Below are positions 25,951 through 28,329 of a stretch of DNA of 64,000 nt, piece after piece. The notes under the pieces were generated by a model. The model was not told the DNA's origin. It searched no databases and saw only the letters and a program-made list of their open reading frames with translations. The first letter of the stretch is position 1, and each line of letters opens with the position of its first letter. The DNA lies in the NCBI GenBank assembly GCA_022823235.1, contig JAJDXO010000030.1:62001-126000 (forward strand), given 5' to 3'. The translations under genes and the position numbers were made by a program. The DNA comes from Rhodospirillales bacterium (lineage in GTDB: Bacteria > Pseudomonadota > Alphaproteobacteria > Rhodospirillales > UBA2165).

Positions 25951-26475
25951 ATGTCCATTTCAATGCATCATCTTGTCCGGACCGAAACCGAGCAGTTGCT
26001 CACCGGAATGCTCAACGTTCTCGACCATGCCGAAGGGCTGGTGAAGGACGGCAAGGCCGAGGAAGCCGATTTGATGGCCAGCAAGCTGGCGCCGGACATG
26101 TTTTCGCTGTCCTTGCAGGTGTGGCGCGCCGCGGACCATGGCCGGGCGGCTGCGCGGCTGGCTGGGCGGGAAACGCCGCCGTTCACCGATATGGGCGAAC
26201 TCGGCATCGCCGATGCGCGGGCAAGGATCGAAGAAACGATGACGCTCGTGAAATCGGTAACCGAGGATGAGCTTGAGGGCGCCGAGGACAGGACCGTCGA
26301 GATCACTGCCCGCGGCGAGCCGACCCGCTTCAGGGGCGAGGACTATCTTCTCCGGTTCGCCATCCCGCAGATCGCCTTCCATGTCACCACCGCTTACGCG
26401 ATCGTCCGCAACGCCGGCGCCGAACTCGGCAAACGCCACTATTTGTGCGACGCTTTCGACTACACCCTAAGCTAG
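25951..26475 (+). CDS. DUF1993-like protein
   Basis: 174 aa, IPQIAFHVTTAYAIVRNAGAELGKRHYL; located 13 nt before the Sec-candidate gene. Confidence 0.65.
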   Translation: MSISMHHLVRTETEQLLTGMLNVLDHAEGLVKDGKAEEADLMASKLAPDMFSLSLQVWRAADHGRAAARLAGRETPPFTDMGELGIADARARIEETMTLVKSVTEDELEGAEDRTVEITARGEPTRFRGEDYLLRFAIPQIAFHVTTAYAIVRNAGAELGKRHYLCDAFDYTLS

Positions 26476-26488
26476 GAGCCCGCCGCCA

Positions 26489-27109
26489 ATGTCCGAACCC
26501 ATCACCCTCGAGATATTCACCGACTACGTCTGACCTTGGTGTTATCTCAGTACCGGGCGTATTGAAAAATTACGAGACACCTTCGACGTCGACGTCGAAT
26601 TCGTGCATTTTCCGCTTCACCCGGAGACTCCGGGCGAGGGCCAGACCCTTGAGGAGCTGTTCGCGGGCCGCGACTACGACATCGATGCGGCCTACCGGCG
26701 CATGAAGGGCCTGATGGACGCCGAAGGCCTCGATTACGGCAAGCGTACCCACACCTACAATAGCCGGCTCGCGCAGGAACTGGGCAAGTGGGCGGAAACC
26801 CAGCCGGACGGCGACGCAATCCACATGGCGCTGTTCCGCGCCTACTTCGTGGACAACCGAAACATCGGCAATGCCGAGGTGCTGATGGAGATCGCCCGGG
26901 AGGTGGGTCTCCCCGAAGACGGCGCCCGTGAGGTCATCGAGGAGCGGACCTTCGAAGCCGCCGTCGACGTGGACTGGGCCAAATCGCGGCAGTATGGCGT
27001 CACCGGCGTCCCAACCTACGTAGCCGAGCGCCAAGGCGTGGTCGGCGCCCAACCCTACGAAGCACTGGAACAATTCATGGACGGTGTCGGCGCCCAAAGG
27101 AAAGAGTGA
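26489..27109 (+). CDS. FrnE/DsbA-family thioredoxin-fold oxidoreductase, candidate selenoprotein (in-frame TGA at codon 15, UPWC motif)
   Basis: ATG at 26489 reads MSEPITLEIFTDYV-TGA-PWCYLSTGRIEKLRDTFDVDVEFVHFPLHPETPGEGQTLEELFAG... to TGA at 27107-27109. The same frame continues as a full FrnE-like domain (GVTGVPTYVAERQGVVGAQPYEALEQFM). The ORF track shows only the fragment from 26603. Confidence 0.85.
26538..26581 (+). other. Candidate bacterial SECIS hairpin
   Basis: Upper stem UCAGUAC (26547-26553) / GUAUUGA (26559-26565), 7 bp with one G-U, loop CGGGC (26554-26558), loop begins 20 nt after the UGA. Outer stem GGUGU (26538-26542) / ACACC (26577-26581). Confidence 0.6.
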
Positions 27110-28329
27110 CCGGCCCGGGAGAGGCAGACGTGGATACCCTCAACGATCCTAAATCCGGGGTGACGGGCGACGAACTCATCCAGCGGATCAGCGACATGGT
27201 CCCGGCGCTTCGGGAGCGTCAACGCGCGGCCGAGGAGGCGGGCCGAATCCCTGAAGAGACCATCGGAGACCTCAAGCGGGCCGACCTGTTCCGGGCCATC
27301 GTGCCAAAGCGCTATGGCGGCCATGAGGTTGACTTCAAATACATTCCGCAGATTTTCCGCGAGCTGGGACGCGGCTGCATGTCCACCGGATGGACCATGG
27401 GGTTCCTCATCTACCACAATTTCCAGTTCGGCCATTACCCGGTGGAGGCTCAGGACGAGGTGTGGGGCGGCGAGCCCGGCTACACCATGGCGGCCGGGCA
27501 GGTCATGCCGAGCGGGACGGCCGAGCGCGCCGACGGCGGCTTTCGGCTGACCGGCCGGTGGGGGTACGCGACCGGAATTCTTCACGGCGACTACATGGCC
27601 CTGGCGGCGCCGGTCGCCGATAGCGGCGATCCGGCGGAAATGCGGCGGTTCTTCGTACCGGCAAGCGAGTTCACGATCCTCGACACCTGGGACGTGTCGG
27701 CGATGGCGGCAACCGGCAGCCACGACGTGGAGTTGGACGGCACGTTCGTGCCGGAGCACCATTCGGTGCTGGTAAGTGATTTGCGCAATGGCCGGGCGCC
27801 CGGGCTGGAGGTCAACACCGATCCTGTGTGGCGGGTGCCGCTCCTGACTTTCATGGTCTACGGCGCGGTCGGCCCGTTGATGGGCGCCGCCGAGGCGGTA
27901 TGCGAGCTCGTCTGCGGGGTCCTCAAGGGCAAGACCAACGCCTACTCATACGCCGCCATGGACAAACAGATGTCCACCCGGGTGCGAATGGCCCAAAACC
28001 AGATGACCGTGGAAGCGACCCGCCGTTTATTCGACGCCGGCATCCAGGAAGTTTCGGACAAAGTCGCCCGCGGCCACGAATTCAGCCGCGAGGAACGCGT
28101 CAAGGCGCGGATGGTCGCCAGTCACGTCGCTCGCACGTGCCATACGGTGGTCAACGATATGGCGCGCGAGGCCGGTTCCCGGGCGATCTACAATGACTCG
28201 CTGATCCAGCGATTCCAGCGCGACACCAATGCGCTGGCCACCCACGCCATCTTCGACGTGGACCACGTCGGCGACATCTATGGCGGCGTCCTGCTGGGTC
28301 AGGAAATCCCGCCCAACGTCATGCTTTAG
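27106..28329 (+). CDS. Acyl-CoA dehydrogenase / HsaA-like flavin-dependent monooxygenase family
   Basis: ALRERQRAAEEAGRIPEETIGDLKRADLFRAIVPKRYGGHEVDF... RGCMSTGWTMGF; start may be downstream of 27106. Confidence 0.85.
   Translation: MTGPGEADVDTLNDPKSGVTGDELIQRISDMVPALRERQRAAEEAGRIPEETIGDLKRADLFRAIVPKRYGGHEVDFKYIPQIFRELGRGCMSTGWTMGFLIYHNFQFGHYPVEAQDEVWGGEPGYTMAAGQVMPSGTAERADGGFRLTGRWGYATGILHGDYMALAAPVADSGDPAEMRRFFVPASEFTILDTWDVSAMAATGSHDVELDGTFVPEHHSVLVSDLRNGRAPGLEVNTDPVWRVPLLTFMVYGAVGPLMGAAEAVCELVCGVLKGKTNAYSYAAMDKQMSTRVRMAQNQMTVEATRRLFDAGIQEVSDKVARGHEFSREERVKARMVASHVARTCHTVVNDMAREAGSRAIYNDSLIQRFQRDTNALATHAIFDVDHVGDIYGGVLLGQEIPPNVML

Follow-up and report, generated by a model that had tools for sequence, protein, structure and literature searches.

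The window analyzed here, a stretch of 64,000 nucleotides from an uncultured Rhodospirillales-like bacterium, contains a 206-codon frame on the forward strand (26489–27109) that opens with an ATG at 26489 and is interrupted at codon 15 by a TGA (26531–26533), directly followed by codons for PWC. Its translation reads MSEPITLEIFTDYV-[TGA]-PWCYLSTGRIEKL... An AGGAG resembling a Shine-Dalgarno sequence (26474–26478, forward strand), which an earlier reading of the DNA made without database searches (the sequence-only reading) had noted as GGAG, lies 10 nt 5′ of the ATG and is identical in both same-genus relatives. That reading had also described the interrupted frame correctly, estimating that about 190 codons remain open after the TGA; the exact figure is 191, and the frame closes with an ordinary stop that is itself a TGA (27107–27109, forward strand). 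An open frame of this length after the TGA would, from base composition alone, arise by chance with a probability of ∼0.004. In the mechanical list of open reading frames the gene begins at a GTG at 26603, as had been pointed out.

A gene for a DUF1993 protein lies directly upstream (25951–26475), and its TAG overlaps the Shine-Dalgarno sequence of the interrupted gene; the two genes stay together within the genus, and one further locus (L027) also has DUF1993 upstream. Downstream, a frame for an HsaA-like monooxygenase of the acyl-CoA dehydrogenase fold (27106–28329) overlaps the end of the gene, with its GTG at 27106 lying over the TGA stop, an arrangement in which translational coupling is possible. 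The set of neighbors (LDH/MDH-like, DUF1993 and acyl-CoA dehydrogenase-like) recurs within the genus and, in part, in a single genome besides, but nowhere else. No conserved operon partner hinting at a substrate was found: neighbors at the other loci of this type look unrelated, and several of the ORFs there are probably not real genes.

When the TGA is read as a residue, the product matches the Pfam DSBA domain (PF01323) with 108 bits over residues 6–196, and among PDB sequences it matches Deinococcus radiodurans FrnE over its whole length (E = 5.5e-24), bearing out the claim of a complete FrnE-like domain; in that alignment the TGA falls on the first cysteine of CPWC, precisely where it had been placed. 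An AlphaFold2 model (mean pLDDT 96.5) is closest to Deinococcus FrnE among solved structures (5coh, TM 0.89), with Streptomyces SCO1869 also among the closest, and YjbH, DsbM and kappa GST ranking behind these two. The residue encoded by the TGA (U15) immediately precedes the first long helix of the model (residues 16–31). U15 (as selenocysteine (Sec) or Cys), Cys18 (26540–26542, forward strand) and Pro175 (27011–27013, forward strand) are invariant in the alignment; Cys18 would resolve the UPWC motif and is the only other cysteine in the protein, so that U15 and Cys18 are its sole redox residues, and Pro175 belongs to the conserved GVP motif already recognized from the sequence, where the cis-Pro loop of the thioredoxin fold is expected. 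The protein thus has the features by which we define the FrnE subfamily of the DsbA family (PF01323/COG2761, the latter of which we take to be the FrnE orthologous group), namely a DsbA thioredoxin domain with an inserted helical domain, a CPWC-type motif at the first helix, and the GVP proline. The domain extends from the start of the frame, and inspection by eye revealed no N-terminal hydrophobic stretch, so a cytosolic location is likely.

In order to follow the TGA codon among relatives, we scanned genome contigs and 150 related genomes, obtaining 98 distinct orthologues. At the site in question 44 of these carry TGA, 30 TGT and 24 TGC, and no other codon occurs; an in-frame UGA thus stands where homologues have cysteine, the alternation of Cys and Sec that the sequence-only reading had proposed to look for. 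TGA is retained among orthologues as divergent as ∼55–60% identity, and two independent genomes of the same genus (95% and 93% protein identity) share it, so the codon is not a base-calling error of a single assembly. Hosts of the TGA form comprise MAGs of Alpha-, Beta- and Gammaproteobacteria, along with four Acidobacteriota MAGs whose genes form one clade.

A predicted bacterial SECIS hairpin (26547–26565, forward strand) begins 14 bases after the TGA, occupying bases 16–34 when the T of TGA is counted as 0. Its seven-base-pair stem (TCAGTAC, 26547–26553, with GTATTGA, 26559–26565) encloses a five-base loop (CGGGC, 26554–26558) that begins 20 nt after the UGA. All seven pairs are formed in 41 of the 44 TGA genes, as opposed to none of the 54 Cys genes. 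Compensatory changes are limited to two of the seven stem pairs, one of these in a single sequence: UA is replaced by CG at alignment pair 21/31 in eight genes, and AU by UA at pair 19/33 in one gene. The covariation score is 0.110, vs. 0.052 for shuffled alignments (reached in 0 of 500 shuffles), pairing is found in 99% of cells vs. 25–44% when the stem is slid, and RNAalifold recovers the identical stem unprompted. The loop reads CGGGC, CGTGC or a variant that contains GG (GGTYC), invariably with G as the second base; the element thus has the small, G-containing apical loop just 3′ of the UGA that characterizes a SECIS.

Codon usage points to a constraint at the nucleotide level in the hairpin region, additional to that on the protein. 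Over codons +1 to +12 the synonymous codon entropy ratio is 0.50 in TGA genes, compared with 0.91 elsewhere; in Cys genes it is 1.00. The TGA genes hardly vary in their codons for Leu, Ser, Thr, Arg and Ile in this region (CTC and CGT each in 43 of 44), whereas the choice is free in Cys genes. In the gene of the window itself, GC3 is 27% over codons 15–29 vs. 82% in the rest. Folded as a single sequence, the hairpin is not significantly stable (z = −1.13), and neither is that of selD, a sure selenoprotein gene of the same genome, which indicates that single-sequence folding is not a useful test for a SECIS; the case for this element therefore rests on conservation and covariation. An Rfam scan of the window returned nothing but one tRNA.

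Although TGC and TGT are each one base change away from TGA, a sequencing or assembly error is negligibly probable, and we reject it, because two independent genomes (G001, G002) have the codon as well, as do another 41 distinct orthologues, and because the hairpin specific to TGA genes is missing from all Cys genes.

The TGA might instead be a nonsense mutation in a pseudogene, with the protein ending at residue 14 and the remainder decaying or restarting at the GTG at 26603, the start that gene callers would choose. Such a restart would remove the active site, strand 1 and helix 1 from the product, yet UPWC is kept; the mechanical ORF list thereby retains only part of a well-supported selenoprotein, a fragment that lacks the active site. 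Beyond codon +12, downstream of the hairpin, dN/dS is 0.09–0.18 in five comparisons, indicating that purifying selection continues after the TGA, whereas neutral decay in this copy would have told against a selenoprotein, as would close relatives all carrying TGC or TGT. Conservation of the TGA among the 44 divergent orthologues, taken together with this selection, leads us to reject the pseudogene, which we consider exceedingly improbable.

The machinery for selenocysteine is complete in the host genome (3.78 Mb, 98.8% complete), where selA, selB, selC and selD, the genes that the sequence-only reading had suggested seeking, are all present. A tRNA-Sec (78.4 bits; called by ARAGORN as tRNA-SeC with anticodon TCA) lies on contig C46, selA (596 bits) and selB (460 bits) lie next to each other in overlapping frames where contig C60 ends, and selD (409.5 bits) is found on contig C58. 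The selD gene (L017:1501–2448, reverse strand, G000:C58) has its own in-frame TGA at codon 17, giving GGGUGCK, so the genome holds another clear selenoprotein gene. On genomic evidence, the use of selenium by this uncultured bacterium is established. A hairpin with a GUC loop lies ∼17 nt after the UGA of selD. A search of the host for the selenoprotein family NF041047 found no member.

Across genomes, selA accompanies the TGA form: it occurs in 14 of the 18 genomes with this form vs. 1 of the 11 with the Cys form (p = 0.0005, treating related genomes as independent) and, among genomes at least 90% complete, in 9 of 9 vs. 1 of 11 (p = 0.0001, on the same treatment). The four TGA-form genomes that lack selA are all at most 89% complete, and two of them still have a tRNA-Sec (74–79 bits). 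In two TGA-carrying genomes, G007 and G021 (85% and 88% complete), neither selA nor a strong tRNA-Sec was found, probably reflecting genome incompleteness. One Cys-form genome (G052, locus L049) still has selA and tRNA-Sec, showing that the capacity for Sec decoding does not oblige the FrnE-like gene to carry Sec.

Decoding of the TGA outside the Sec system, by a reassigned code, a suppressor tRNA or read-through that inserts Trp or another residue, would likewise produce an in-frame TGA in an open frame. The gene's own TGA terminator, however, argues against genome-wide reassignment, every orthologue without the TGA has Cys at the aligned position, the hairpin is confined to TGA genes, and the genome has the full Sec machinery together with a Sec-type selD. 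We therefore reject this reading as very improbable. The in-frame TGA is very probably read as selenocysteine, the first residue of a UPWC active site; the candidacy put forward by the sequence-only reading is upheld by the machinery, the Cys/TGA alternation, the lack of decay and the TGA of relatives.

The product of the gene is almost certainly a cytosolic selenoprotein belonging to the FrnE branch of the DsbA family (206 aa with U15), with its UGA decoded via SelB and the hairpin and UPWC as its redox centre. Evidence from sequence covers the frame, the machinery, the covarying hairpin, selection and the Cys/TGA alternation, and we infer Sec incorporation, redox direction and substrates. 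In the mechanism that we propose, SelA and SelD of the host would make Sec-tRNA(Sec), and SelB would bind the hairpin and bring the Sec-tRNA(Sec) to the ribosome, where the UGA would be decoded as selenocysteine instead of stop. U15-P-W-C18, where the first long helix begins, would form a thiol/disulfide redox centre. Its selenolate would attack a disulfide of the substrate, or else enter into a mixed selenosulfide, and Cys18 would then act as the resolving residue. Because the protein has no other cysteine and no C-terminal CX4C, regeneration should fall to an external reductant, either thioredoxin or glutathione; we would class the enzyme as a selenol-based thiol-disulfide oxidoreductase.

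A selenoprotein whose main activity is not disulfide reduction but that of an oxidase, an isomerase or, within the related kappa-GST/HCCA-isomerase fold, a glutathione-dependent enzyme is a rather unlikely alternative that nonetheless deserves some weight. The weaker structural matches do include kappa GST and HCCA isomerase; FrnE structures, however, are the best matches by a wide margin, and the two-residue redox motif is retained, unlike in kappa GST, which has a single Ser. For the selenol-based oxidoreductase, a role in oxidative or thiol stress is probable by analogy, as suggested by the Deinococcus FrnE mutant (PMC8945050).

A tree computed after masking the U column unites the TGA genes; three Cys genes fall within their group. 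The hosts of two of these, L036 (genome G003) and L040 (genome G013), lack selA. L036, in which the stem is broken, keeps the Sec-type context YLNTGRIEKL and most codons of the SECIS region (CTC AAT ACC GGG CGC ATC); it has likely reverted from Sec to Cys and still bears a fossil SECIS. Midpoint and outgroup rooting give conflicting answers on the polarity of the Sec and Cys forms; the outgroup places the root inside the Sec group, where it adjoins a long-branched row, and the outgroup branch itself is very long. We offer only tentatively, as a somewhat doubtful scenario, that Sec is ancestral in this FrnE subfamily, that a large Cys clade including marine SAR116 arose by Sec loss, that several independent Sec-to-Cys reversions occurred, and that the Sec gene was transferred into Acidobacteriota. 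The position of the four Acidobacteriota genes (L075, L090, L094 and L099), as one clade inside the proteobacterial Sec genes, suggests horizontal transfer between phyla, although these genes may also stem from binning error.

Among characterized proteins, D. radiodurans FrnE (DR_0659; PDB 5cnw, 5coh) resembles the protein of the window in fold (TM 0.89, 32% identity), in the position of CPWC/UPWC and in its predicted cytosolic location, but has Cys in place of Sec and uses a C-terminal CX4C in regeneration (PMC8945050). The protein of the window lacks this CX4C, as do FrnE of D. maricopensis and Streptomyces (PMC8945050). None of the NCBIfam models tested names the protein; the Rcas_1661 family thioredoxin-like (seleno)lipoprotein (NF041057, ‘DsbG-like’ family) is likewise a Sec-containing oxidoreductase of the thioredoxin fold, but a score of 30.6 bits against a cut-off of 190 marks it as a different family.

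The sequence-only reading had suspected that the class has a precedent, and it does: DsbA-like UxxC selenoproteins of COG2761 were described from nine Sargasso Sea sequences in 2005 (PMC1088965), ‘DsbA 1’ from 63 GOS sequences enriched in marine samples in 2008 (PMC2398784), and DsbA-like selenoproteins also occur in genomes (PMC1794560). A 2026 review catalogues a ‘DsbA-like protein form 1’ (PMC13188914), with published Sec sequences AACY01178397 and NIP15863.1. In the parts of these accounts available to us, no covarying stem, Acidobacteriota members or Sec-to-Cys reversions were found; as far as those parts go, the published proteins share with the gene of the window a UxxC motif of DsbA/FrnE type whose first Cys is replaced by Sec, the PF01323 domain, a downstream SECIS-like hairpin, marine bacteria and widespread Cys homologues, with no difference of kind. 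From the agreeing COG and motif, the gene would belong to the same clade as ‘DsbA-like protein form 1’. It is thus a selenium enzyme of a previously known kind, to which the present analysis adds the gene, its SECIS, and the spread over Proteobacteria and Acidobacteriota; the family, which offers numerous natural pairs of Cys and Sec forms, a covarying SECIS and what look like Sec-to-Cys reversions in genomes lacking selA, lends itself to the question of why selenium is gained or lost by redox enzymes.
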